DNA of 64,000 nucleotides, taken from assembly GCA_900317325.1 (NCBI GenBank), contig ONGE01000014.1:1-64000 (forward strand). The letters run 5' to 3'. Below the pieces are notes generated by a model. The model had not been told where the DNA came from. It worked only from the letters and a program-made list of their open reading frames with translations, and made no database searches. Numbering within the stretch: the first letter of the stretch is position 1; every line of letters starts with the position of its first letter. Origin of the DNA: an uncultured Prevotellaceae bacterium. Its GTDB lineage: Bacteria; Bacteroidota; Bacteroidia; Bacteroidales; Muribaculaceae. This document shows, one piece after another, positions 18,487-38,005 of this stretch. The position numbers and the translations under genes are program-made.

Positions 18487-21400
18487 TCACTTGACGTAGA
18501 CCTTCTTGTTGCCAATCAAGTAGAGGCCGTTCAAGCCCTCAAGGCTGGTGGCCTGGCGGCGCACCAAGCGGCCATCGATGGTGTACACGTCAACGGGCTG
18601 ACCGTCCACAGTAATCTCGTCAATGCCATTGGTGATGTTGATTACAGCCGTGGCAGGAGCAGACTCCTTGCCGCCGTCATAGACAGCCGTCACTGCAAAC
18701 GTGTGCTCACCGTCAGCCAGGCCCGTAGCGGGCAGGTCGTAGGCCGTATCAGCAGTACTGCCGACCAATTCACCGTCCACATAGATGTTGTAGCCCACAG
18801 GAGCCGAAGCAACACGTTCGAAGGTGACGTCATCCAGCAACAAGCCGAAGATGTCCTGTGCCGTGTGGCGGATGGCGAAGTACTTCGTGCCCTCGGGGAG
18901 CGTGAAGGTGTACTCGGTCCAGTCGGTGGCATCGAACGATTCGTCTTGGAGCGAAATAAAGCTATCGATGTTGTTGTCGGTGGTTGAATAGAGCACCTCG
19001 AAGGTCTCATAGCCATAGTCGGCCGTAATCACGCGGGCGAAGAAGCTGATTTCCTGCTCATTGCCCATCAACTCGGGCGAGATGAGCCAGTGGTCGGTAA
19101 CGGGGATGGGATCGCCGTCGGACACACAGGTTGACAGCAGCAGCTGGTTGCCGCTGTGCGGTTCATAAACCGAACCCACTTCTTCGGGGAAGCCCTCATA
19201 CATGGAGTTGAATACCATCCACGCCATGGGGTCACCCAGGTTGGGAACCTCAAAGCCCGTGAAGCCATAGCACATCAGTCCGTTGCCGTCGTAGAGCGAC
19301 CAGTCACCGAAGGCGCCATTGTGCTGCGTGTAGGTGATACCACCCAGGCTGAACTCGGGGAATTGTTCGGCATCCTCAAAGTCCTCGGTTACCTGCATCG
19401 CGCCATCGGTATCGGGAGCGGTCCACGACAGAGCCAGATCGTTGCCAGACTGCTCAACAGTCAAGCCTGTGGGAGCAGGCAGAGCCGGCTCGACAATGGT
19501 GATATAGGCCTGAGCCTCATTGTTGGCGAGTTGCTGATCCATGTCATAGACGACACGAGCCATAATCTCGACATCACCGGCCTCGTCAAGTACCGTGGTC
19601 GGGAATTCAACCTGCTGGGTCCAGGATTTGAAGGGTGCCAGCGTCTGGTTGGGAGTCACATCCACCAACTGCTTGTCACCGGCCGTGAGCAGCACCTGGA
19701 AGCAGTCTGCCGCATTCTCGCCCTCATTGGTCACAGTAACCGTGATCGATGTTGTGTTGCCAGCCACCACACTCGAGGGGGCATTGAGCGATATGGACAG
19801 GTCGTTCTGATACAAGTCGCCGATGTGGATATTGTCCACCAGGAGCACGTCGCCGAGGGAAATCAGCTCACCCTCCCAATGGTCAATCTCGGAGGCGTTG
19901 GCATACCTTGCCAAGAGGCAAATGCGGGCGTAGCGACCGCCTTGCAGGGCCGTCAGGGGCACCTTCACCTGTGAGTAGGAATTACCCACCGAGATGTTGT
20001 CCTGAAGGACAGCGAATTCGGCGCCGTCAACGCTGCCGTAAACTGCCAGTGAACTGATACCGGAACTGGCGACGTCAAAGAGGAGCGTCGGGTTAGCAAG
20101 GCCAGCAAGGTCGAGTTTGCCCGAGTTGAAGTACACCATGCCTTCCTCCTCGCTGAGCAGAGCCATCGACGAGCCGTCGGCGTCGGAGGACTGGGGCGAA
20201 ATCATGATCGTGCCGTTGGTCTCCCAGAAGTAATGCAGCTCATCATCAGTGAAGCCCTCGACAATGGGCAACTCATAAGGAGCACCCACCAGCAAGCCCG
20301 CTGTTGACCTTTGACCTTCAAACTCGGCGTTGGCCTCGTTCCTGGTCTCGACGATCCAATACTCCATGCGCTGTTCACCCTCGTCGGTGGCGCAGGGCAC
20401 GTCGTAGGCGTCAGCATCGGTGAGCGTAGCCAGCAGTTCGTTCTTCTCGATAGAATAGTCGGTCCATCCCTCTTCGACAAACGTGCTCCAAACGAGATAG
20501 TTGACCGTTGCAGGATTCACCGGACCACCGTTTTCACCGGTGTTGCCCACCTTGTCCCAGTTCAGGGCAACGATGTCGCCGCCATCGGCTGCAGTGAGGT
20601 TCTCGACAGAAGTCGGAACATCGGGACCGACATAGACAGTCACCTTTTCACTCTTCAAGCCCTTGCCCGACTCATTGTAGGGGATGGCCTGGTAGGTGTG
20701 GTCGCCGACTTCATCAGGCTCATCAACATAGGTCACGGTAGCACCAGGAGCCACATCCTCAACGCTGCCGACAACGCTGCCGTCACGCAGGATGTCGATG
20801 CGGGTCAATTTAGCGGTCAAGGGGTCGCCGTTAACGGCAATATTGGGGGCCGTAATGGTGACCTCGGCGCGCAATGCAGCCAGTTCATCGGCGACAACGC
20901 TGATAACGGGTGCGGCAGGTGCCGTAGGCTCGGCGCCAAAGTCAATGCTGATGGAATTCACCATGAGGCGATAGGCATCGGCATCGCTGATGGCATGGAT
21001 GGCCAGATAATACTTGCCGCTCTCATTCACCGAGAACATGCCCTCGAATTCTTCGCCCATGTCCTCACAGGTGGTGACATCGGTGGGCCCGATGACCGTG
21101 GTGGTCATAGCCTCGGCTGCGGGCTCGGCGCCCGACAGCACCTCAAAGCGCTCGTCAATGCCTGAATTGCGGGCATTGACAACCACTTCGTAGTTCTTGT
21201 TGGCCTCCAGCAAGACGGGCAGCATGACAAGGTAGTCGTCGGCCGCATTGTCGGCGCTGTAATAGTAATTGGTCAGGTAGGTATCATCCCAATTCCAGGT
21301 GCAACCGTCCTCATTGGCATCGATCACCGTGAAGAGGTCGAAGGTCTCGGGCTGGGTCAAATCGGCGGTATAGGGCACATTGAGCGTGACCATGACTTTC

Positions 21401-23466
21401 ACGGCCACAACCTCGCTCTTGTCACCGGCGCCCTTCTCGTTATAGGCCACAGCATAATACTTGTGTGTGCCAATGGTCAAGTCTTCGCCATTGTCAGCCC
21501 AAGTCAAGGCTGTGCCGGGAGCTACGTCCTCGAAGGTGTGGATCACCTGGCCGTCACGCACGAGTTCTACCTTTTCCAGATTGCCCGACAAGGGCTCACC
21601 GTTGCGTTTTACAACGGGTGCCGCAAAGTTGATGGTCACCTCGAGCTTCTCTTCGGTCTGGACGGCAGTCAAGTCGGTGGGAGCGGCAGGAGCCTCCATC
21701 TCATAGACGTCAACCATCACATTGTCGACAAAGAGCTTGTTCATGTCGGCGGGCGAGATGGCGTGGAAACCGATATAATAGGTTCCTGTCTCGCTCACGG
21801 TAATCTTGGCCTCGAGCTGCTGGGGCTCTTCCTCCCAGGTCACGTCGGTGGGCTCAACGACCTGGATGGTCATGCCCTCGGGGGTGGCCTCGTTGCCGGC
21901 CAACACCTCGATGCGCTCGTCATAGCCCTTATTCCAGGTGTCGAACGTCAGGCGGTACTGTTTGCCGGCCTCGAAGTGGAAGGCGGGCGAAATCAGCCAG
22001 TCGTCGGCATCAAAACTCTCGTTGTAGGTGTAACGTGCAAACCAGTTATCGTCGCTGTTATAGGCGAAGTCCCATGTGTCGTGGTCACCGTTGGCATCGA
22101 TGATGGTGAATGCCTCCTGCTCATCGGTGGTCTGGAAGGTGTTCAGGTAGGGATAGTCCTCGATGGGCTTGAAGGGGTCCTCGCGGCTGATGGCCACGTC
22201 CTCAATCCAAACGTCGAAATCCACATTCTCGTCACTGCCGTTGGCAAGCAACTCGACGAGCGAGGTGAATACCCCACCCTCCTCGTCAAAGGCCATTTCA
22301 TAGGGCACCAGGTTGTCACCGTTGTAGCCCATGGCATAGATGGTCTGGCCGTCCAGTTCGCCCAGCACCTGCATGCCGTCGAAGGTCACGGTGCCGTCGT
22401 TGATGACGCCATGCATCCACGCGTCAGGGTAGCCGGCGAACAGGCCCTGCAGGTACACATCATCGCCATCAAAGCCCAGGTTGACCTGACCGCGGAAAGG
22501 CACTGACGAGCCCTCGTAGTAATGACCGCGGGTGTACCACGTCTCGGTCTCCAGGCCAGCCGGCGGCGTCACCGTCACCACATCAAGGGTCACAAAGTCG
22601 TGATCGAAGGTATAGACGCTCTCATAGTCGCCAAAGTCGGAGAAGTCAACATTGCCGTCGCTCTCATAGAACACGCCGATAATGTTGTCCTCGTTCGAAC
22701 CATTGAGCGTAATTTGGTCACCGTCGATGGTGAAGGTAATCGCATCATGCGCATCGTCCTTGAAGTAGAAGCGGTCATCCCTCACGCCCCAATAGAGGAC
22801 ATGAGGCACTGCAAAGTACCCGCTGTGGCCCACCAGCTGTCCCGTGGGGATGGTGATGGTGTTGCCGTCCAAGGTGCCTTTCACCCAAGAGTTTGTGCGA
22901 TAGGTAGAGATGATGTCCTTGATATAGACATCGCCATTGTCGCAGAATACGACATGCACCTGACCGAACTGCTCGGTGAGCAGCCTGGAGTCGCCGTCAG
23001 GGTCATAAATCAGCGCATTTCCCGAGCGGTTATAGATTTTTCGCTGACCCTCGGCGGGCTTGATAATCACACCATAGTCATCGCGCACTTCCCCGGCACG
23101 TCGAGGCGCCCTGTTGTTCTTCAGGCTCGGACCTGCGGCAGGATGATGGGCCATACGCTCGATGGCCGTTTCCTTCTTGTCCTTCACTTTGGACACAGAA
23201 GCGGCTTCTTGAGCCTTGGTTTTCACTACGGCGTCCCGCTTCTTATCGGCAGGCGCCGTCGGCGCGGTCGCCACATCGGTTTGCGAGGCGCGGGCGTCAA
23301 CATTCTTTGAGGGCAGGTTCTTGACTTTCCTCAAGCCGTCATGCGTGGCATTGGCCAATCGGGTGGTCAAGTCAACGGGCTGCTGAGGCGAATCTTGGGC
23401 CCTCGCTTGTGATGACCACAGCAAGAGCATGGCCACAGCAAGCAAAAACATGGTTTTCTTCCCCAT
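18487..23466 (-). CDS. Large secreted adhesin-like protein (choice-of-anchor J / Fn3 / CARDB) with sorting tail
   Basis: An exported 1659-residue protein. After a signal peptide (to about 23) comes a Lys/Ala-rich linker, then two copies of a module also found in the protein at 47343 (about 137-265 and 300-420; key pieces VVFCDNGDVYIKD, SWVKGTLDG, ITIPTGQ). Next are repeated choice-of-anchor J/cleaved-adhesin domains (DADDWLISPAFHFEAGKQYR and two more like it) alternating with Fn3 domains (PAAPTDLTAVQTEEKLEV), a CARDB-like domain (NDLSISLNAPSSVVAGNTTS) and a final MAM-like domain. It ends VDVYTIDGRLV to GLYLIGNKKVYVK, a type-IX-style sorting tail. The domain set recalls gingipain adhesin regions, without a protease. 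Promoter -7 box TATATTTGC at 23508-23516. Confidence 0.9.
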   Translation of the reverse strand: MGKKTMFLLAVAMLLLWSSQARAQDSPQQPVDLTTRLANATHDGLRKVKNLPSKNVDARASQTDVATAPTAPADKKRDAVVKTKAQEAASVSKVKDKKETAIERMAHHPAAGPSLKNNRAPRRAGEVRDDYGVIIKPAEGQRKIYNRSGNALIYDPDGDSRLLTEQFGQVHVVFCDNGDVYIKDIISTYRTNSWVKGTLDGNTITIPTGQLVGHSGYFAVPHVLYWGVRDDRFYFKDDAHDAITFTIDGDQITLNGSNEDNIIGVFYESDGNVDFSDFGDYESVYTFDHDFVTLDVVTVTPPAGLETETWYTRGHYYEGSSVPFRGQVNLGFDGDDVYLQGLFAGYPDAWMHGVINDGTVTFDGMQVLGELDGQTIYAMGYNGDNLVPYEMAFDEEGGVFTSLVELLANGSDENVDFDVWIEDVAISREDPFKPIEDYPYLNTFQTTDEQEAFTIIDANGDHDTWDFAYNSDDNWFARYTYNESFDADDWLISPAFHFEAGKQYRLTFDTWNKGYDERIEVLAGNEATPEGMTIQVVEPTDVTWEEEPQQLEAKITVSETGTYYIGFHAISPADMNKLFVDNVMVDVYEMEAPAAPTDLTAVQTEEKLEVTINFAAPVVKRNGEPLSGNLEKVELVRDGQVIHTFEDVAPGTALTWADNGEDLTIGTHKYYAVAYNEKGAGDKSEVVAVKVMVTLNVPYTADLTQPETFDLFTVIDANEDGCTWNWDDTYLTNYYYSADNAADDYLVMLPVLLEANKNYEVVVNARNSGIDERFEVLSGAEPAAEAMTTTVIGPTDVTTCEDMGEEFEGMFSVNESGKYYLAIHAISDADAYRLMVNSISIDFGAEPTAPAAPVISVVADELAALRAEVTITAPNIAVNGDPLTAKLTRIDILRDGSVVGSVEDVAPGATVTYVDEPDEVGDHTYQAIPYNESGKGLKSEKVTVYVGPDVPTSVENLTAADGGDIVALNWDKVGNTGENGGPVNPATVNYLVWSTFVEEGWTDYSIEKNELLATLTDADAYDVPCATDEGEQRMEYWIVETRNEANAEFEGQRSTAGLLVGAPYELPIVEGFTDDELHYFWETNGTIMISPQSSDADGSSMALLSEEEGMVYFNSGKLDLAGLANPTLLFDVASSGISSLAVYGSVDGAEFAVLQDNISVGNSYSQVKVPLTALQGGRYARICLLARYANASEIDHWEGELISLGDVLLVDNIHIGDLYQNDLSISLNAPSSVVAGNTTSITVTVTNEGENAADCFQVLLTAGDKQLVDVTPNQTLAPFKSWTQQVEFPTTVLDEAGDVEIMARVVYDMDQQLANNEAQAYITIVEPALPAPTGLTVEQSGNDLALSWTAPDTDGAMQVTEDFEDAEQFPEFSLGGITYTQHNGAFGDWSLYDGNGLMCYGFTGFEVPNLGDPMAWMVFNSMYEGFPEEVGSVYEPHSGNQLLLSTCVSDGDPIPVTDHWLISPELMGNEQEISFFARVITADYGYETFEVLYSTTDNNIDSFISLQDESFDATDWTEYTFTLPEGTKYFAIRHTAQDIFGLLLDDVTFERVASAPVGYNIYVDGELVGSTADTAYDLPATGLADGEHTFAVTAVYDGGKESAPATAVINITNGIDEITVDGQPVDVYTIDGRLVRRQATSLEGLNGLYLIGNKKVYVK

Positions 23467-24802: not shown

Positions 24803-25456
24803 TTAAGTCGTTATTGTAATCTTCTTTATTAACGACAGGTCACCACTAGACAAGGCCTCAAAGTTGGCCTCAATCTTCTCGATGTCCCAATCCCACCACT
24901 TTAGTTCCAGAAGATAGTTGATGAACTCATCGTCAAAGCGTTTTCTGACAACACGGCAGGGATTACCAACGGCAACGGAATACGGAGGAATGTCTGAGGC
25001 CACCACCGAATTGGCTCCGATAATGGCTCCGTCGCCAATGTGAACGCCAGGCATAATGGTGACATGCTGCCCGATCCATACGTCGTTGCCCACAACGGTA
25101 TCACCCTTCAGCGGCAATTCGTCTTTCACCGGTGCAATGGCACTGCCCCAGTCCCCGCCAATGACATAAAACGGATAGGTTGTCACGCCGTCCATCCTGT
25201 GATTGGCACCATTCATGATAAACTCCACACCCTTGGCGATAGCGCAAAATTTACCGACGATCAGCCGATCACCAATAAAGTCGTAGAAATGTGTTACATG
25301 CTTCTCGAATTGGTCAGCACCATCCACGTCATCGTAATAGGTATAGTCACCGATGATGATGCGCGGATTCTTCACCACGTTTTTGATGAAGCAGAGGCTT
25401 GGAATCTTAGGATTCGGGAAAGCCTCATTGGGATCAGGTCTGTTTTTAATTTTCAT
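24803..25456 (-). CDS. CatB/Vat-like xenobiotic acetyltransferase (left-handed beta-helix)
   Basis: A 217-residue hexapeptide-repeat enzyme closely fitting the Vat (streptogramin A) and CatB (chloramphenicol) group. Seen: [57 protein letters not shown] (with the catalytic-type NGANH His), [20 protein letters not shown] and [20 protein letters not shown], then the usual C-terminal [17 protein letters not shown] helix. Members acetylate antibiotics, but many chromosomal ones have unknown substrates. First gene of the operon; -7 box TAACTTTGC at 25482-25490 with a 25-base leader. Confidence 0.93.
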
Positions 25457-28600: not shown

Positions 28601-28627
28601 AACTCTTTAGCATAATGCCTACCTGTA

Positions 28628-29083
28628 TTACCAGTTGAGGGGCTCCTGCAGGATGATACCGTCGTTCATGGGGTTGTCGGCCTCGGTGAACGGGGTGGCC
28701 TTGTACTGGACGCAGAGCATCGTCAGGTTCTCGCTGCCGGTGTTCTTCAACGCGCGCTTGCCGTCGGGAGACACGCGGATGACGCTACCCTCGCTGACGG
28801 GGAAGATCTCGCCATCGACCTGGTACTGGCCCTCGCCACGCAGGATGAAGTAAAGTTCCTCGTGGGTCTTGTGAGTGTGCAGGAAACCACTGTCCTGTCC
28901 CGGAACGAGCGTCTGGAAAGAGAACTCGCTGGCTGCTGCTCCAACGGCCTGTCCGCCGAAGACCTTACCCTGAATCGTGAAGTCCGGGCCCATAGGCAAC
29001 TCGTGCTCGATAATCTCGCTGATGCGGCCAACGTTGATGGCGGCATAATTTGCACCCTGTGCAATCTTTTCAATCTGTTTCAT
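28628..29083 (-). CDS. Cupin domain-containing protein
   Basis: A 151-residue single-domain cupin. The metal-site pattern appears as GFLHTHKTHEELYFILRGEG (H-x-H with a following Glu) and GSVIRVSPDGKRALKNTGSE in the second motif, where the usual His is replaced by Arg/Lys-rich sequence; metal binding may be partial. The front half (QGKVFGGQAVGAAASEFSFQ) is typical of a group of small cupins of unknown chemistry. It follows an HxlR regulator gene by 17 bases, so it is probably the regulator's target in a redox or electrophile response. Confidence 0.9.
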   Translation of the reverse strand: MKQIEKIAQGANYAAINVGRISEIIEHELPMGPDFTIQGKVFGGQAVGAAASEFSFQTLVPGQDSGFLHTHKTHEELYFILRGEGQYQVDGEIFPVSEGSVIRVSPDGKRALKNTGSENLTMLCVQYKATPFTEADNPMNDGIILQEPLNW

Positions 29084-29100
29084 TGTGTAGTAAAATGTGA

Positions 29101-29481
29101 TTAATGTTTTTTATTTGATGAATAATTCTTGCGGTCATTCAAGATGTCGGCCAGGTTGGCCAGCGACCATTCAATCAGGCTGTTGATGTGCGGCATGAGC
29201 GACTTGCCTCGCTCGGTGATGCTGTACTCCACCCGGGGCGGTATCTCGGCATAGGCCTGCCTCTGTACCAGCCCGTCGGCCTCCAGGTTGCGCAGCGCCA
29301 CGGTGAGCATCTTCTGCGAGATGTCGGGTATCGCCGCAAGGATGTCGGAATACCGCATCGGCGTGTCCTTCCCGTCGAGCGTGTACAGTATCAGCATCGA
29401 CCATCGGTCGCTGATGCGCGACAGGATATTGCGTATCGGGCAATCAGGAAAGTATGGATCAACAATAATGTCTCGTAACAT
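29101..29481 (-). CDS. HxlR family winged-helix transcriptional regulator
   Basis: A 126-residue regulator. The HxlR core is plain: CPIRNILSRISDRWSMLILY, then MRYSDILAAIPDISQKMLTV (recognition helix), LRNLEADGLVQRQAYAEIPP and RVEYSITERGKSLMP in the wing. The Cys near residue 15 before the P-I-R segment is the residue used for thiol or electrophile sensing in HypR/QorR-type members. It leads an operon with a cupin gene 17 bases downstream. A -7 box TAACTTTGC lies at 29529-29537. Confidence 0.95.
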   Translation of the reverse strand: MLRDIIVDPYFPDCPIRNILSRISDRWSMLILYTLDGKDTPMRYSDILAAIPDISQKMLTVALRNLEADGLVQRQAYAEIPPRVEYSITERGKSLMPHINSLIEWSLANLADILNDRKNYSSNKKH

Positions 29482-29716
29482 ATTTTGTTCTGATTATCAG
29501 TTTTACTAACTTTTCTATTGTTTCGGTTGCAAAGTTACTACCATTGGTTGACATGACAATGAACTCACTTTTATGATTTGTTAAGACTTGAACGCATCAT
29601 TCACTACCCCGCCCTGAGTGGCTACCTATTTCAATTTCCCTCCCGAAATATAAAAAAGCAAGAAGAGATTGCCACCTGGGGCGTTTCCCTCCTTGCCATA
29701 GATTGTTTTATCAGTG

Positions 29717-31150
29717 TCATTCAGCGTGAACAAACCCGAGCGTTGCGAACCGCAAGTGGGTAGTCCGCTTGAATCCCGTCATGAACATGCGCACATAACG
29801 GATGTAAGAGAAATCATTTATCGAACCGATTTTCCTCTCATACTCATTCAGGGGGATGGTGAACTGGTACCACGTTGCCACCTGGGCTTGGCCGTTACGC
29901 GTGCGCACATTGGCGACATGCTTATCGGTGATATAGTTTGAACCCACGCGCATCGAGTCAGGAACGATGGCGATGCGGTACTGGAAATAACGTTCATTCT
30001 CGTTAAGGGAGAAATTCAGGTCGATGTCCTCGATATCGGGTATTGAACGCGACGTCTGATGCTGCCTGTCGTTTGCTTCCGCAGGGGACAACGAGTTACC
30101 TTCGGTACCAACGTAATGCTTGTACCGTTCGATGATACTCGCTTTGCTCTGATCATAATAAGTGTGGAGATAGAACGCATAATTATCACTGGCGGGGTCG
30201 TTGATCGGCGAGAACGGATCTTCTCGCATTGAGGCAACTGTAGATGCCGGCAACTTTCTTTTCAGATCTTCAATGAATTGAGCATAAGACGGATGCACGA
30301 ACTCTTCGGCTGTTAACAGTCCATCAAAGCCGACGTCCTTGTGGATGCGTGTGCTACTGCTGTTATCAAAGGCATATGTCACTGGAGCCTGGGAGGGGAC
30401 TTTGCCCCAGACCGTTTGTATGGCGGCAGTGGATTCGCCATTGTCGGGCAAGCCGTTCTCGAAACTCATGAGACCGTCCTTGAGGATGTCCTCACTCACG
30501 TCGCCCAAATTGAAGTAGAGGAAGCCACCATCATGGTTACCCAAATCGGGATCCATGAAGGGGTCAAGCAGCCAGAACTGGAGACAATTGACGCCCGCCG
30601 ACTCAAAGTTGTTGTATTGTCTCGTCAAGAAGCACATGATGCCGCCCCAGCGTCTCTCGGGATAAAGCAGGTGGCCGTACTCATCCACATTGGTAGCATC
30701 CAGGTTGTACGGTCCGCGCTCACTCGGATAGAACGACAGGTTCAACGTCGGGATTACCGACGACTCACCATCTTTCAACTCATGGTCAGGGTACACCTCA
30801 TTGATTGACACTTCACGGGCATAAGGATAACTCAAGCCATCAAGGTCATTCTTGATGTAGTCCGGAGCATCGGGCGAATTGCGTTGAGTGAATACTGGGT
30901 CAATTGTATACCACGCCAGCAATGCGCGGTTCTTGCCATAGGTCACGTCGTTGACCAACGAAGCCTCAGGGAACAGTAAGGCATCTGCCGGTACCGATGA
31001 CAGCACCCATCGGTATGGACTGCTGAGATTGATGAGGATCTCTGTGGGCTTGGGGTCGGGTTCGTCAATAATGGCGTTACCCGAATCAGTGCAACTTGCC
31101 AATATACCAATTAACGCTGAGGCCAAAAGGATATTTACTATTCTATTCAT
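29717..31150 (-). CDS. Orphan SprA-domain lipoprotein (homologous to part of the T9SS translocon SprA)
   Basis: A 477-residue lipoprotein (MNRIVNILLASALIGILASC; lipobox LASC). From about residue 140 it follows the conserved extramembrane region of SprA/Sov, the outer-membrane channel of the type IX secretion system: YPERRWGGIMCFLTRQYNNF, LQFWLLDPFMDPDLGNHDGG, YFNLGDVSEDILKDGL, then ENGLPDNGES, TVWGKVPSQAP, HKDVGFDGL, DPASDNYAFY, RYKHYVGTEGNS and finally MRMFMTGFKRTTHLRFATLG. Full SprA is over 2000 residues with a 36-strand barrel; here there is no barrel and the protein ends where that domain ends. Its -7 box is near 31261-31268. It may be a soluble partner or regulator of secretion (inference). 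Confidence 0.85.
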   Translation of the reverse strand: MNRIVNILLASALIGILASCTDSGNAIIDEPDPKPTEILINLSSPYRWVLSSVPADALLFPEASLVNDVTYGKNRALLAWYTIDPVFTQRNSPDAPDYIKNDLDGLSYPYAREVSINEVYPDHELKDGESSVIPTLNLSFYPSERGPYNLDATNVDEYGHLLYPERRWGGIMCFLTRQYNNFESAGVNCLQFWLLDPFMDPDLGNHDGGFLYFNLGDVSEDILKDGLMSFENGLPDNGESTAAIQTVWGKVPSQAPVTYAFDNSSSTRIHKDVGFDGLLTAEEFVHPSYAQFIEDLKRKLPASTVASMREDPFSPINDPASDNYAFYLHTYYDQSKASIIERYKHYVGTEGNSLSPAEANDRQHQTSRSIPDIEDIDLNFSLNENERYFQYRIAIVPDSMRVGSNYITDKHVANVRTRNGQAQVATWYQFTIPLNEYERKIGSINDFSYIRYVRMFMTGFKRTTHLRFATLGFVHAE

Positions 31151-31351
31151 AACACAAAACTTTTAATGTTAGACAAAAAATAATTAGGTAATGAAGTACT
31201 CTCTATCCTAGACGAAACAGTATAACCAATTAATAAATTCTGATAAAGCGACCATTCACGCAAAAATAGTCCCTTTACCTATATAAACGGAATAAAGTTA
31301 AAAATATTATATGAAAAAAAGGGTGTTTTGAGGGCTGTTGAGTGAATTGAT

Positions 31352-31840
31352 TTACAATTCGATATAGAGAAGGATGATGTCCTCGTAGTGGCCGTCCTTC
31401 ATGCGGAAGCCCTTGGGAATTCGGCCCAATTGGGTGAAGCCCAAGCGTTCATACAGATGCAGGGCGTGGACGTTGGCAGCCACAACCGCGTTGAACTGCA
31501 TCAAGCGGAAACCCAGACGGGCAGCCATCACCAACGAGTCCTTCACGAGTTGCTCGCCAATGTGCAGCCCGCGCTTGTCCGACCTGACGGCATAGCTGGT
31601 ATTGCCGATGTGCCCGCATCGGCCCACGTTGTTGGGGTGCAGGATGTAGAGGCCGACCACCTCGCCTGTCTCGCTATCCACAGCGACACCGGTATAGGAC
31701 TGGCTGGAGAAGAAGCCGTGAGCCTCCTGCTCGGTCAGTTCCTCGACCTGAGGGAAGGCGACGCCCTCACGCACGACCTCGTTCCATATCTCCATGGCCC
31801 GGGACGCGTCCTGTTTCTGATATGCCCTGATTGTAATCAT
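31352..31840 (-). CDS. GNAT family N-acetyltransferase (phosphinothricin/YhfO type)
   Basis: A 162-residue acetyltransferase starting at 31840 (MITIRAYQKQDASRAMEIWN); the frame from 31864 overlaps the upstream gene and adds NNPHYHH. GNAT features are RAYQKQDASRAMEIWNE at the front, VGLYILHPNNVGRCGHIGNT, SYAVRSDKRGLHIGEQLVKD (motif A; R-x-x-G-L/I-G) and HLYERLGFTQLGRIPKGFRM. This resembles the pat/YhfO-like subgroup acting on small amines, but the substrate is not evident. It follows the small Imm32-like gene directly and is probably co-transcribed with it. Confidence 0.92.
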   Translation of the reverse strand: MITIRAYQKQDASRAMEIWNEVVREGVAFPQVEELTEQEAHGFFSSQSYTGVAVDSETGEVVGLYILHPNNVGRCGHIGNTSYAVRSDKRGLHIGEQLVKDSLVMAARLGFRLMQFNAVVAANVHALHLYERLGFTQLGRIPKGFRMKDGHYEDIILLYIEL

Positions 31841-31856
31841 GTGATGATAATGGGGG

Positions 31857-32069
31857 TTATTCAATCTTCTCGATAATCATCTCACAGGAGCCTTCCTCCA
31901 ATGAGTTGTACTCGTCATAATGGATGTGGCTCCCGACCTCCTCATTCGCCATGGCCGTCAACTGCCTGGCCAACGAGAGCAAGCCCTCCCTGTTGGCCGA
32001 AATCACCACCGTGCTACCGCTATCCACCCTCACTTTGATGGCGTGACCGTCTTCCCACTTAATTTCCAT
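31857..32069 (-). CDS. Imm32-like small immunity-type protein
   Basis: A 70-residue protein. VVISANREGLLSLARQLTAM followed by GSHIHYDEYNSLEEGSCEMI matches the pattern I know for the Imm32 family (N-R-E-G-L-x-x-L-A, then H-x-H/H-x-D and L-x-x-G-S-x-x-L/M-I). Imm32 proteins were defined as immunity proteins in polymorphic toxin loci, but chromosomal orphans are common. No toxin gene is adjacent. It ends just before the GNAT gene. Confidence 0.7.
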   Translation of the reverse strand: MEIKWEDGHAIKVRVDSGSTVVISANREGLLSLARQLTAMANEEVGSHIHYDEYNSLEEGSCEMIIEKIE

Positions 32070-32176
32070 AATGTCCAGTATTCACTTTCAATGACACCTG
32101 CAAAGTTAACGATTTTTTCAAAAACTACTCGCTTGTTATTGGCGTTTACTTAGCAGCCGTCACAATGCCTGCACCC

Positions 32177-32215
32177 AAATAAAGGAAAACCGCTACCATG
32201 ATGGCAGCGGAATTC
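32177..32215 (-). terminator. Hairpin terminator of the TonB-dependent receptor gene
   Basis: CCGCT / AGCGG (32190-32210) extended by imperfect pairing, followed on the minus strand by TTTTCCTTTATTT. A short stem, but with a good U tract. Confidence 0.5.
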
Positions 32216-32254
32216 TTTCCCTTGGACATCTTCGTCGTCAAGAACTAAGCTTGT

Positions 32255-34357
32255 TCAGAACTCGAGGGGGATGGTGAGTTTGACGATGATATTGCGGCCC
32301 ATGTTCAGCACACCCTGGCGGCCGGTGACGGGATTGACGTCGGCATATTTAAGGCGGCTCAAGTGGCTCTGGTAAGCCTTGTTGGTGAGGTTGGTTCCCA
32401 TCAGGCTCAGGCAGGCCACACGCTGGCCCTTGACCATGATGTCGGTGCCAATAGCGGCATTCAGCAGACAATAGGCCGGCGTGGCAGTCTCGGTGTCATC
32501 GGCGCGGTAATAATGGTCCTGCTTGAAGTTGTAATCCACGCCCAGCGAGATGAAGGCATTGTTCAGCACGCGGCCGTCGTGCAGGATTTCCCACTTGATG
32601 TCGCTCTGCCAACGCGGTGCCGGAGTGAACGGCAGATACTTGGATTCCTCGGGCTGGTGCAACTGCACGGCATTGACAAGAGAAAAACTCGTGCCCAAGT
32701 GCAGGAAATGCCAGGGATGAATGTCCAGCGCCAACTCGCCACCCAGCAACTGGGCATCGCCGCTGTCGTAGCGATAGGTCATGAACTCATCGTCGATGAC
32801 CTCGCCCGAGCGGTGGATGAAGATGTAGTTGTCGATGCGGTTGCTGAACAACGACAACTGCGCATCCATCCATGACGTGGTCAACTCGGCACCCAGGTCG
32901 AACTGCAGGCTAAACTCGGGCTTGAGGTCACGGTTACCCACCTCGTAGCGCAGTGAGCCCTCGTGCACACCATTGCTGGCCAACTCGCTGATGTTGGGGG
33001 CGCGGAATCCACGGGCGGCATTTGCCCTCAGGTCCAGGTGCTCGGTAGCGTGCCACACGGCGCCCACACTGGCGGTAAAGCCGCTGAAGTCACGCTTGAA
33101 GGCCTGGAAACGCAGGTCGCCGTCATCCATCAGCTCACGGCTGTCGAGATGGCGGTTGTCAAAGCGCAGACCTCCGTTCAGGGCCCAACGGCCGACGTTA
33201 GCCGTCGTAGTGACGAAGGCGCCGAAGTCAAACAAGCTGTAGTCAGGGATCAAAAACTCGTCGCCCTCGTTGAGCGAGCGCTGCCACATGCCGCTCACAC
33301 CACCGGTGATGCGCCAGTCTTCGCCCAGGCGCCTTGTCACGTAGTGGACGTTGTAGTTGACCGTGTGCAGCTTGAGGTAAAGTCCGTATTCATCCGGCTC
33401 CTCAAATTCCTGGCGACGGTTCTGCTGGTAAGCCAGCACGGCATTGAGGCGGCCATCCCCCAGATAGAACGCGTTGTCAAACACGGTCTTGTAGTGATAA
33501 ACCTGCTGGTATGGCAGACCGTGGTGATAGGTCTTGGTGTCGGCATAAGGCTGTTCGAGTTCTCCCGTCAGCGGGTCACGCTCGCCCTCGGCGATACTTG
33601 GAGTGAGGTGGAAATAGGAGCCCGTCAGGCGCGTATGGCCCCAGGCTCGGTTCACGCCCAGCATGCCCGAGAAGGCACGCTCGCGAAACTGCGTGTTGGG
33701 GACGTAGCCGTCGCCAGGGGTCTTGTAGGCATGGGCGAACTTATCGCCGTAGCGCAGGTTCCAAGACAGGCCCTTCTTGTTGCCGCCGAAGTTAAACGAG
33801 TAGTTCACGAGGCCGCTGTTGGAGTGGTATTCGGAATTCACATTGACGCGCATCTTGCCCAGCGGCACAACGGGGTCGGTGTTGAGTTTGAGGACTCCCG
33901 CCAGGGCATCCGAGCCGTAGAGCAGGCTCGCGGGTCCCTTGAGCACCTCGACCGAGCTCACGGCGTTTCCGTCAATCTCCACGCCGTGTTCGTCGCCCCA
34001 CTGCTGCCCCTCCTGACGCACGCCGTCGGCTACGACGACTACACGGTTGTATCCCAATCCGCGGATGACGGGCTTGGAGATGCCGCTGCCGGTGCTCACC
34101 TGTGCCACACCGGGCAGTTTGGCCACCGCATCGACAATGTTTGTTGCCGGTGACATGCGCAGACTGTTACGGTCAACGACAGCTGCAGGCATCGACATGT
34201 CCTGCATCTTTACTGCACCGGTCGGACCGGTGACAACCACTTGTTTGAGTTCTATGTGGCGAAAGAACACATCGGTCGAGTCGAGCACGACCGCTTCTTG
34301 AGCTGTCATCGTGCCCACGCACGCCAACAGCAGAAGAATCCAAAAGTATGATTTCAT
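32255..34357 (-). CDS. TonB-dependent outer-membrane receptor (ZnuD-like)
   Basis: A 700-residue outer-membrane transporter with signal peptide (ends VGTMTAQEA). The plug (about residues 38-150) has MQDMSMPAAVVDRNS, DAVAKLPGVAQVSTGSGISK and VEVLKGPASLLYGSDALAG; the barrel ends in NMGRNIIVKLTIPLEF with the terminal Phe. There is no SusC-type N-terminal extension and no SusD gene nearby, so it is a metal- or cofactor-type receptor rather than a glycan one. WGDEHGVEIDGNAV and several His-containing loops fit the ZnuD-like zinc-receptor group (inference). The small Cys/His-rich protein gene immediately upstream supports a metal role. Confidence 0.93.
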   Translation of the reverse strand: MKSYFWILLLLACVGTMTAQEAVVLDSTDVFFRHIELKQVVVTGPTGAVKMQDMSMPAAVVDRNSLRMSPATNIVDAVAKLPGVAQVSTGSGISKPVIRGLGYNRVVVVADGVRQEGQQWGDEHGVEIDGNAVSSVEVLKGPASLLYGSDALAGVLKLNTDPVVPLGKMRVNVNSEYHSNSGLVNYSFNFGGNKKGLSWNLRYGDKFAHAYKTPGDGYVPNTQFRERAFSGMLGVNRAWGHTRLTGSYFHLTPSIAEGERDPLTGELEQPYADTKTYHHGLPYQQVYHYKTVFDNAFYLGDGRLNAVLAYQQNRRQEFEEPDEYGLYLKLHTVNYNVHYVTRRLGEDWRITGGVSGMWQRSLNEGDEFLIPDYSLFDFGAFVTTTANVGRWALNGGLRFDNRHLDSRELMDDGDLRFQAFKRDFSGFTASVGAVWHATEHLDLRANAARGFRAPNISELASNGVHEGSLRYEVGNRDLKPEFSLQFDLGAELTTSWMDAQLSLFSNRIDNYIFIHRSGEVIDDEFMTYRYDSGDAQLLGGELALDIHPWHFLHLGTSFSLVNAVQLHQPEESKYLPFTPAPRWQSDIKWEILHDGRVLNNAFISLGVDYNFKQDHYYRADDTETATPAYCLLNAAIGTDIMVKGQRVACLSLMGTNLTNKAYQSHLSRLKYADVNPVTGRQGVLNMGRNIIVKLTIPLEF

Positions 34358-34993: not shown

Positions 34994-37900
34994 TTACTTC
35001 ACGAGGACTTTGCGGACGGTGCCGTTGCTGTAGCGGATGATGTTGACACCTTGCTGCAGCTCACTGTGCTGACGACCCTGCACGTCGTAGATACGCGCAT
35101 CGGCAGGCATGGCGCTCATGACTTCCTCGATAGCGGTAGTCTGGACGCTCACTTCGTTGCTGGGCAGGCTCTCGCCCTGCTCATAGACTGCGGTCACATA
35201 GTAGGTGGCATCGTTGCCGGCCATCTGACTCGTGTAGCTCGTCTCGGGAGCAGCGACAAAGGCGATGAACTCGCCGTCGCAATAGACGTTGTAACCCGTT
35301 AGGGTGCGGGGAGCCTCGCTGGTGGCTGCGGGAGCGAAGGTGAAGTCATCAACCATCAGCATCACGCTGCGGCGGATGCAACGCACGGCGAAGTAGGTGG
35401 TACCCTCGGGCACGTCGAACGTATACTCACGCCAGCCGTCACCGACGTAGATGCGTTCCTCGTCGTTGAGCTTCACGAAGCTGTCGTGGTGGTTGTCGGT
35501 CGTCGAGGTATAGACGTTGATCCACTCCGAGTCGAAGGTGGCAGCCTTGGCCCAGAACTTGATGGTCTGTGCACGGCCGTCGAGGCGCGGCGTAATCAGC
35601 CAGTCGTCGTTCTCGTAGGGGTAGTCCACGCTGGGAGCAGCCATGTACTGCTCACCGCTGTGAGGCATGAACGCATTATCCATGTTGTCATCTACCCAAG
35701 TCTGAGTCTCGGTCGTGTTGAACACCTGGAAGGCCATGGGAGCGCCCTGGTTCTCGTAGGTGACGGGGATGCGCGGCGTCACGAGTGTCGTGGCCTGGTC
35801 GCCGTCGTAGAGGGTCCAGTCGCCTACGCCGTCGATGGCGAAGGCACGATAGGACTCGAAGTCATCGGTCACATAGGCCAGTTCGCCCTGTGCCGGCTCA
35901 ACCGACTGGCAAGCTTCCCACATCAGGGTCACGTTGCCCTCACTGGTGGTAGCCGAGAGATACTCGGGTGCGGGCAATTCGTTGGGACGAACCGAGGTGG
36001 CGATGATGGCGCTCATGTTGTTCTCGGGCATCATGTCGTCGGCCCAAACCACCTCGACCTGCCAGTTGATGGACTCCATCTCGGCATCGGCAGCAGCTGC
36101 GGTATAGGTTGCCAGACCGGTGGTTGAGAAACCGGCGGCAAGAGATTGCTCGGTGACGCTCTGATAGAGTTCGCCGTCGCGGTAGATGTTCACGGTGTAG
36201 TTCTGAGCCTCCTGTGAACCGCGGTTCATGATGTCATATTTCATCTCGAAGTTCTCGCCCACGTTGACACGCTTCGGGTCGATGGTGAAGGCGGTAACGG
36301 CGAGATCATTCTCGACGCTGGCCTCACCGATGCGGATGTTGTCCACATACAGGTCACGACGTGCGCCCATCTGGTCGCTCAGAGCCGAAGCCAACAGGCC
36401 GATGTTGGCAAAGTTGGCGTCAGCATTCTTGGGCAGAATCACTTCACACTCAACCCACTGGTCGGTCCTCTCGTTGAGGAAGAACTGGGCGTTCTCGACA
36501 TCCTGCCACTCGCCGCCGTCAAAGGAGACTTGCACCTGGATGTTGTCGTCGATCTCGCCATCCCACTCGGGATCATACCACGCGCTGCGGCCATAGTGGA
36601 ACATGAACTTCATGGTGGGCACGTTCACGCTGTTGAGGTTCAGCATGGGCGAAACGATGCGGCTGTGCGTGTCGTAGTCGGCATACTGGCTCTCGGCAAC
36701 GAGGAAACCGCCGTCGTAGTCAGGAGCCTCGATGAGCGGCTCACCCGTCCAGTCGTCGTAGATGTCGCCCGTGGCATAGAAGTCAAAGTCGTTTACCTCG
36801 CCGTCCTGGGTCCAGTTCTCTTGCTCACCCCAAGCGAACGATGCGCTGTAAGGCAGATCAAGGGGCTTGCCGGTTACCAAGCTGTTGCTCTGCACGGCCT
36901 CACCCTCATTGCCGTTATAGAGCGGCGTGATGGTGTAGTTGGCGTTAACCTGGCCCTCGGTGACGGGAATGATGTCGGTATAGGAGGTCTCGCTGATGCC
37001 CTCGGCAACCACGCCACTCGACTCGCTGTTGCGCTCCACACGATAGGTGATCGCGCTGAAGTCAACATAGCCGCCGTTGACCGACTGCGTGGGGGCGTCC
37101 CAAGTCACGGTGATGCTCATGTCGTTGTTCAGCTTGGCCACCGCATTGGTGGGAGCCACGGGCATATCCATGCCGACAAAAGCGGTCACCTCGACGGCAC
37201 TGCCCTCACCCTCGCTATTGCGGGCAACGACACGGTAGGTGTTGAAACCGTTCAAGACCTCGGTATCCACATAGGTCAAGGCCTCACCGGGAGCAGGATT
37301 GTCGAAAGTCTTCTCGAGTTCACCATTGACATAAACATCGATGGCGGTAAGTTCGTTCAAGGCCTCGCCAGCGGCGTTTACCGTGGGAGCCGTGAAGGCC
37401 AGCGTAGCCTCGGTGGCACCAAGGTCGGCAGGTGTCAGCACAACGCCGGTCACCTCACCAGGAACACCCTTGGACGATTTCTCGATGAGCTTCACGTTGT
37501 CGATTTCGACGCGGTGCTGCTCGGGCTCACTGTAGGCATAGAAAGCCAGGCGATACTTGCCGCTGGTGGCAGCATACACCTTGACCGTCTTGTCGCCCGA
37601 GTCGCTGCGGACCACACCGGGGTAGTCGGCGAGCACCTGGGTGAACGAGGCGGGATCGGTGCTGGTGCCGAGCAGGACACGCAGGTTCTCGGTCTTGGAC
37701 AGCACGCCCATGTAGAACGTCAGTTCATACACATTGTCGGCATCCAACTCAAATTCCGGCGAGATGTAGTAATCATCACCTGGGAGGCCGGTCTGGTAGT
37801 CGAGCATGTAAGCAGCCATGCCATTGAGGAACTCCCACGTGCGGCCACCGTTCTGATCCACGATGGTCCAGGAGTCAAACGCTTCCTGCGTGTCGAAGGT

Positions 37901-38005
37901 CTCTTCGAGCAGGACATCACCGGGGTTTGCCCACACCGACGATGCGGCAAACACCATCAGGCCCATAAACAGGGCCCGCAAAGAAATACGTATTCCTTTT
38001 TCCAT
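34994..38005 (-). CDS. Large secreted adhesin-like protein (choice-of-anchor J / Fn3) with sorting tail
   Basis: An exported 1003-residue protein (signal peptide to about residue 26, SSVWANPG). It begins with a choice-of-anchor J/cleaved-adhesin domain (LEETFDTQEAFDSWTIVDQN, GDDYYISPEFELDADNVYEL), then Fn3 domains (VPGEVTGVVLTPADLGATEA and VAPTNAVAKLNN), a second and third anchor-J domain (PHSGEQYMAAPSVDYPYEND, DDWLITPRLDGRAQTIKFWA) and a CARDB-like section (NDLAVTAFTIDPKRVNVGEN). It ends RIYDVQGRQHSELQQGVNII to RKVLVK. The layout parallels the 1659-residue protein at 18487 but lacks its N-terminal module pair. Promoter -7 box TATATTTGC at 38043-38051. Confidence 0.9.
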   Translation of the reverse strand: MEKGIRISLRALFMGLMVFAASSVWANPGDVLLEETFDTQEAFDSWTIVDQNGGRTWEFLNGMAAYMLDYQTGLPGDDYYISPEFELDADNVYELTFYMGVLSKTENLRVLLGTSTDPASFTQVLADYPGVVRSDSGDKTVKVYAATSGKYRLAFYAYSEPEQHRVEIDNVKLIEKSSKGVPGEVTGVVLTPADLGATEATLAFTAPTVNAAGEALNELTAIDVYVNGELEKTFDNPAPGEALTYVDTEVLNGFNTYRVVARNSEGEGSAVEVTAFVGMDMPVAPTNAVAKLNNDMSITVTWDAPTQSVNGGYVDFSAITYRVERNSESSGVVAEGISETSYTDIIPVTEGQVNANYTITPLYNGNEGEAVQSNSLVTGKPLDLPYSASFAWGEQENWTQDGEVNDFDFYATGDIYDDWTGEPLIEAPDYDGGFLVAESQYADYDTHSRIVSPMLNLNSVNVPTMKFMFHYGRSAWYDPEWDGEIDDNIQVQVSFDGGEWQDVENAQFFLNERTDQWVECEVILPKNADANFANIGLLASALSDQMGARRDLYVDNIRIGEASVENDLAVTAFTIDPKRVNVGENFEMKYDIMNRGSQEAQNYTVNIYRDGELYQSVTEQSLAAGFSTTGLATYTAAAADAEMESINWQVEVVWADDMMPENNMSAIIATSVRPNELPAPEYLSATTSEGNVTLMWEACQSVEPAQGELAYVTDDFESYRAFAIDGVGDWTLYDGDQATTLVTPRIPVTYENQGAPMAFQVFNTTETQTWVDDNMDNAFMPHSGEQYMAAPSVDYPYENDDWLITPRLDGRAQTIKFWAKAATFDSEWINVYTSTTDNHHDSFVKLNDEERIYVGDGWREYTFDVPEGTTYFAVRCIRRSVMLMVDDFTFAPAATSEAPRTLTGYNVYCDGEFIAFVAAPETSYTSQMAGNDATYYVTAVYEQGESLPSNEVSVQTTAIEEVMSAMPADARIYDVQGRQHSELQQGVNIIRYSNGTVRKVLVK

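Follow-up and report, generated by a model that had tools for sequence, protein, structure and literature searches.

A predicted stand-alone lipoprotein built from an extramembrane domain of SprA in a Muribaculaceae genus, with counterparts carrying type IX sorting tails in other families

SprA (Sov), the translocon of the type IX secretion system (T9SS), is a protein of some 2300-2500 residues that includes an outer-membrane barrel. Passages of two reports describe this barrel as capped on the outside (PMC10994853, PMC7463736), and in a passage of PMC10994853 the cap assists the binding of cargo CTDs, in a pocket that is plastic. The cap thus touches the cargo signal, and within SprA it is hard to study apart from the 36-strand barrel. 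Two further groups of described proteins are relevant: T9SS cargo with a type A sorting domain (TIGR04183/PF18962) and the surface lipoproteins of Bacteroidota, such as SusD and SusG. The export signal of SusG of B. thetaiotaomicron is given in part of one report as C-S-(D/E)2, with reduced vesicle recruitment of single-Asp variants (PMC6222051), and that of C. canimorsus, in part of another, as K-(D/E)2 or Q-A-(D/E)2 (PMC5080379). In the titles and abstract openings of the open-licence literature we found no description of stand-alone SprA domains.

We analyzed a window of 64,000 nucleotides (contig ONGE01000014.1, assembly GCA_900317325.1) from an uncultured member of the Muribaculaceae. The complement strand of 29717-31150 holds an uninterrupted open reading frame of 477 residues, which the original prediction read as a lipoprotein made of a single SprA domain. 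The motifs on which that reading relied (RWGGIM, LQFWLLDPF, GDVSEDILKDG, DVGFDGL, RYKHYVGTEGNS and RFATLG) are all present in that order, and the profile searches agree with it: the protein matches Pfam SprA_N at 173.5 bits and the full SprA model TIGR04189 at 490 bits (E 1e-146). Residues 36-476 (29723-31045, complement strand) correspond to positions 770-1192 of the 2319 in TIGR04189, and to residues 852-1262 of the F. johnsoniae SprA chain in the PDB (E 9e-74), so that the protein has no barrel and stops, as predicted, at the domain boundary. Its C-terminus aligns with the glutamate of SprA LELVRGE, after which SprA goes on as WRNYKYN. The window protein therefore resembles SprA (TIGR04189; PDB 6h3i, 8gl8) in matching one domain end to end, with the same predicted fold, but it is about one fifth as long, has no barrel, has its own lipoprotein leader, lies at a separate locus and has lost some invariant residues. 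In sum, the domain is a familiar one, and what is new is its architecture, which recurs. Because stand-alone proteins of 477-568 residues score 360-490 bits against TIGR04189, well over its equivalog cut-off of 200 bits, automatic annotation would call them translocons.

The predicted structure points the same way. An AlphaFold2 model, computed from an alignment of the window protein, three other stand-alone copies and 37 SprA domains and hence not independent of homology to SprA, has a mean pLDDT of 76.9 and a pTM of 0.81, with residues 1-34, 257-261 and 366-384 poorly predicted. In a Foldseek search of the PDB with this model, SprA chains were the only matches at E≤0.001 (8gl8_A at E 4e-32 with TMq 0.73; 8gl6, 6h3i, 6h3j), and the other fold that would have contradicted the prediction did not appear. 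Behind them came one unrelated chain (E 0.24) and, at ranks 6-8, the jelly rolls of CBM11 and CBM28 (E 0.27-0.40), none of them significant. In outer-membrane barrels the long loops are on the outer side. From this rule, together with the size of segment 852-1262 and its place within the large non-barrel insert of SprA, we infer that the segment is part of the SprA cap. The least certain part of the model includes an EF-hand-like loop at residues 375-386 (29993-30028, complement strand; model confidence is low at 366-384), which we take to be a putative Ca-binding motif. In the alignment most genus SprAs read DINQDNTLNEYE here, and the window copy reads DIDLNFSLNENE, a partly degraded form.

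The N-terminus of the window protein, MNRIVNILLASALIGILASC, reads as a lipoprotein signal peptide (residues 1-20; 31091-31150, complement strand), with the lipobox ILASC at residues 16-20 behind a hydrophobic stretch and Cys20 as the predicted lipidated residue; this assignment was made by eye from the sequence, not by a predictor. A leader of the type that the original prediction had seen is common to all ten stand-alone copies of the genus, each with Asp at +3. In its SPII-type leader, polar +2 and Asp +3 the window copy is like SusD and SusG, but it differs from their described export signal in having one acidic residue and not two. It reads C-TDSGN, and neither it nor any other of the ten genus copies has acids at both +3 and +4, as the C-S-(D/E)2 signal in the part of the SusG report cited above would have it. 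Two acidic residues within +2 to +6 occur in two of the ten copies. For comparison, we collected 12 SusD-like proteins from the window genome, 11 of which were read at the right Cys; ten of these 11 have two or three acids in the same interval and one has a single acid, while their commonest +3 residue is likewise Asp. An outer-face location of the window lipoprotein is thus plausible, but the protein may instead face the periplasm, because it has just one acidic residue against two in the described signal.

The original prediction would have failed if the gene were a frameshifted or split piece of sprA, or the product of an assembly break. It is neither. The window genome (3.47 Mb in 44 contigs, 94% complete) encodes a separate, intact SprA of 2507 residues on another contig (C20), which is 64% identical to the stand-alone protein over residues 21-476, and intact stand-alone frames recur in nine congeneric genomes. 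The genome-wide profile match to the gene does include two TGA codons, since it continued slightly beyond the stop codon (TGA) of the gene; no such codon interrupts the match in the protein search. The window gene is a real, maintained stand-alone protein. The same genome encodes PorV (457 bits) and has 13 matches to the sorting-domain model TIGR04183, 7 of them above cut-off, although this is a loose model that matched 6 of 14 control genomes, one of them above cut-off. None of the 13 lies on the window contig (C18), and the window protein itself has no type A sorting-domain tail by Pfam and NCBIfam profiles. Two large neighbours that we tested match no tail profile either, so the several type-IX-like tails attributed to the window by the original prediction were not recovered.

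Among 101 genomes of the genus, labelled in their records as uncultured Muribaculaceae, Prevotellaceae or Bacteroidales and often of ruminant-gut origin, an intact stand-alone frame was found in 10, the window genome included, and a match of any kind in 92; the ten are a lower bound, many of the 101 genomes being incomplete. The intact copies span 473-484 codons from stop to stop and 469-477 residues from the start. Three more genomes contain fragments: one copy is cut by a contig end (G079), and two are reduced to about the last 100 codons (G006) and the last 30 or so (G124). The survey of occurrence called for by the original prediction gave a uniform answer, in that all ten genomes with an intact stand-alone also have a full-length SprA frame. 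The converse does not hold: congeners without the stand-alone copy retain SprA, which suggests that the stand-alone is not required for the T9SS. Within the genus it has been patchily lost. In five other Muribaculaceae genera, represented by one genome each, we found a single match per genome, a full SprA frame.

The stand-alone arose by partial duplication of sprA inside this one genus. In a tree of 51 rows its ten copies form one clade (support 1.0) within the SprA domains of the genus, the exact sister group being unsure (support 0.75), and the gene neighbourhood is partly common to nine of the ten, the remaining copy (G071) having two neighbours in common with one other (G021). Pairwise dN/dS values of about 0.1-0.25 (e.g., dN 0.24, dS 1.05) indicate that the proteins are under purifying selection. 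Against this background, comparison of the window with a sister genome, G025, revealed a block at 29601-31400 (no strand assigned) with nucleotide identity of 0.59-0.85, between flanks (28601-29600 and 31401-31800) at 0.90-0.98. The gene itself lies at 0.59-0.79 nucleotide and 66% amino-acid identity, and the intergenic stretch 31801-32400 is also low (0.60-0.81). For this pair (G000/G025), the stand-alone reaches a dS of 1.02, compared with 0.27 in SprA and 0.05-0.70 across ten neighbours. On these values we reject hypervariability by point mutation; replacement of the allele fits better. The situation is reversed in G036/G115, where the stand-alone has a dS of 0.06 and SprA of 0.75, as if translocon alleles had been exchanged between related species. 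Comparison of the two sprA loci (L050 and L054) places sprA at 0.73-0.89 identity between flanks mostly at 0.86-0.94. The stand-alone is not always the outlier: across 18 pairs the highest dS belonged to SprA in 16 and to the stand-alone in 2 (G000/G025 and G101/G115). Allele replacement thus shows up in individual pairs and can affect either gene, as the blocks in G000/G025 and G036/G115 show.

Stand-alone caps are not confined to this genus. We surveyed 393 genomes of the order, 363 of which had a match, with up to four candidates scored per genome and about 150 places among the matches listed, and then searched again the 14 genomes in which more than one match had appeared, plus one more. 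Four of the 14 (G165, G270, G491 and G317) contain stand-alone copies whose domain begins and ends at the same points. The copies in G165 and G270 have 568 residues and that in G491 has 527; a second copy in G270 is cut by a contig end and has an additional N-terminal stretch, and the G317 copy has a lipoprotein-like leader and is split into two frames. A 1070-residue frame in G184 was left unclassified. The copies in G165, G270 and G491, from two families, carry a C-terminal T9SS type A sorting domain (TIGR04183, cut-off 23: 24.3, 41.5 and 34.8 bits, respectively; PF18962, cut-off 27: 23.9, 45.3 and 47.4 bits, the first below cut-off). Because of this C-terminal domain, the SprA domain in these relatives looks like T9SS cargo, in contrast to the window copy with its lipoprotein leader. 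Within the outside families, stand-alones were present in two of three genomes and in one of ten. A phylum-wide survey (392 genomes, 308 with a match) gave no further stand-alone frame among the matches listed. In a quick tree of 29 rows, with six of the ten genus copies, the four outside copies and two long branches, a single clade for all stand-alones was rejected (p-AU 5e-8), while one for the outside copies was not (p-AU 0.48). The rejection of the one-clade tree argues for at least two independent origins of the stand-alone cap. A mobile or phage origin found no support: there were no matches in 50,697 phage records, none of 51 pattern matches in viral contigs was related to the stand-alone, and the sole match in a plasmid collection was a gene labelled sprA in a Parabacteroides record of 388 kb.

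The sequence changes that accompanied departure from SprA are localized. Of 103 residues invariant in SprA across the order, the window copy has lost 12, and the genus copies keep 88-94%. The altered residues of the stand-alones are concentrated in four stretches, namely 33-39 at the entry, 186-188 and its surroundings, 373-385, and 474-477 at the exit, so that invariant residues at both junctions with the rest of SprA have been released. Position 188 is the most specific case: 15 of 16 distant SprAs have an acidic residue there and 14 of 15 order-level ones have E, whereas 13 of 15 stand-alones have K, H or N, the ten genus copies among them counting as one clade. The window clade and the G165 copy share eight lost positions against 1.5 expected among the 103; the corresponding overlaps for G317 (2 against 0.9) and the second G270 copy (0 against 0.3) are not significant. 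We considered whether this overlap reflects convergent loss of pore contacts, using the 16 distant SprAs as a control, and rejected that explanation: distant true SprAs, too, more often lack the positions that have gone in two or more of the three tailed copies (118/240 against 330/1390, in a comparison of 52 SprA rows in which some genomes were entered twice). Because distant true SprAs lose these positions more easily, most of the overlap is ordinary mutability, and position 188 alone stays specific. Nor do the stand-alones track the SprA of their own genome: over variable columns, own SprA had a mean rank of 8.3 of 15, with 8.0 expected by chance (permutation P 0.38). This gives no support to a partner that evolves along with its own SprA; the capping, competing or chaperoning named in the original prediction are candidate roles.

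Upstream of the window gene, about 120-146 bases 5' of the ATG, motif scanning and comparison of loci revealed a conserved block, TTTATTCCGTTTATATAGGTAAAGGG (31271-31296, complement strand), which is probably a promoter or regulatory site. It occurs at a single place in the window and in none of 100 shuffles at three mismatches. Its exact shorter form is found in 11 of 233 loci, all 11 of them stand-alone loci (five genomes), and a similar block was seen by eye before four more copies, with none before the G071 copy. As a pattern, the block 5' of stand-alone genes can be written TTTATTCCGTTT-N5-GGTAAAGGG. Next to it, TATTTTTG (31261-31268, complement strand) resembles the Bacteroidetes -7 box, TAnnTTTG; the exact match lies upstream of the window copy alone (one of ten copies). 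No Rfam family reached its gathering score within 29000-32300.

No T9SS core gene was found among the window neighbours scanned, which rejects a shared operon with the secretion system. Elsewhere, the second G270 copy (contig C166; locus L233) lies near a gene of the PorP/SprF family (207.6 bits) and one for a 1486-residue protein whose tail is type-B-like (32.9 bits, where 35 is the cut-off), these two at L233 2310-7978 on the complement strand. Near the broken G317 copy there is a gene with a type B tail (45.6 bits).

What use is a cap without its pore? The independent origin of free caps suggests that there is one. The sequences show the origin of the stand-alone, its boundaries, predicted fold and leader, purifying selection, allele replacement and a second origin with T9SS tails; its membrane face, ligand and function can only be inferred. 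The explanation we favour, while holding it to be somewhat short of probable, is that this outer-membrane protein has departed from the translocon and binds ligands outside the cell as a free module. In this history sprA was duplicated in part, dropping the barrel, retaining the cap domain from start to end and gaining a lipoprotein leader; the lipid would hold the domain at the outer membrane, most probably on the outer face; and the cap fold, no longer part of a pore, would act as a free binding module whose ligands might be T9SS passengers, glycans or foreign proteins. Departure from the pore is suggested because congeners keep SprA without the copy, junction residues are released, position 188 is changed and own SprA is not tracked, and a role outside the cell because three copies from two other families have a type A sorting domain, a better argument than the leader. 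The surface protein reusing the fold that the original prediction proposed is to that extent strengthened by the tails on copies elsewhere, whereas in the window family the surface-export signal is half present. That half signal, weaker than in ten of the 11 SusD-like proteins of the genome, is what would be expected if the lipoprotein were anchored in the inner leaflet, serving SprA or its cargo as a periplasmic holdase or helper in assembly; we think this improbable, since the sorting domains on copies elsewhere are built for export and Asp at +3 is also the commonest residue in SusD-like proteins.

The free cap might instead have stayed with the T9SS, binding CTD cargo or its carrier in trans, at or after the pore, with the surface that contacts cargo in SprA, and so serving hand-over, retention or modulation of release. 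We regard such an accessory as a serious candidate, if on balance an unlikely one. The described part of the SprA cap in CTD binding (in the passage of PMC10994853 cited above), the full-length SprA beside every intact genus copy and the PorP/SprF-family and type B tail genes near the G270 and G317 copies all speak for it, and retention of most SprA-invariant residues would fit a kept T9SS role as well. Most SprA-bearing congeners do without the stand-alone, however, no core gene was among the scanned window neighbours, there is no covariation with own SprA, and proximity to PorP and type B genes stands without a base rate for random genes. A broader version, in which Bacteroidota have cut the cap from the translocon more than once and placed it outside, by lipid anchor in one lineage and by the T9SS in another, as a trans-acting regulator to handle or gate cargo as it leaves the pore, seems to us less likely again. 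Repeated copying of the cap domain only, patchy presence in the genus, the diverged allele between conserved flanks in G000/G025 and the diverged SprA block in G036/G115 could all be expected of a decoy or shield that displays the translocon's exposed face at a distance from the pore and absorbs SprA-binding phages, bacteriocins or antibodies; but a mimic should resemble own SprA, and this mimicry is not supported by the chance-level rank, nor was any copy found in the phage records or viral contigs, so that we give this idea little weight. Least probable is a functionless relic of duplication: losses have occurred, leaving 3' remnants in G006 and G124, but ten intact frames, the low dN/dS, the conserved upstream block and recurrent origin argue against it. 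The stand-alone is a good probe of what the SprA cap domain can do alone, and intact caps that nature has supplied with a lipid anchor or a T9SS tail offer ready reagents for asking whether the cap by itself binds CTDs or carriers.

Several other genes were noted in passing. A 217-residue hexapeptide acetyltransferase in the window (24803-25456, complement strand) scores 305.6 bits, against a cut-off of 300, with the model for Vat-family streptogramin A O-acetyltransferases, a function assigned by name only. Two large proteins of the window (34994-38005 and 18487-23466, both on the complement strand) contain CARDB and choice-of-anchor J domains; to the eye they end in T9SS-like tails, but no tail profile matches them. 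The G165 stand-alone is immediately preceded, in its own orientation, by the gene of a 215-residue protein (L229, 10637-11284, complement strand) without a Pfam or NCBIfam match, whose C-terminal KCISCPTFH (CxxC) is reminiscent of the Cys-Xaa-Cys tails described for PorG and SprF in part of PMC12635249. A phosphatase-like C-terminal domain, SpoIIE-like by sequence reading, adjoins the G491 copy (L231 10570-10941, complement strand), and a similar one, 52-62% identical, lies about 3 kb from the G165 copy (L229 13413-19474, forward strand); this may be a common gene. Similar repeat proteins lie near the G317 and second G270 copies.
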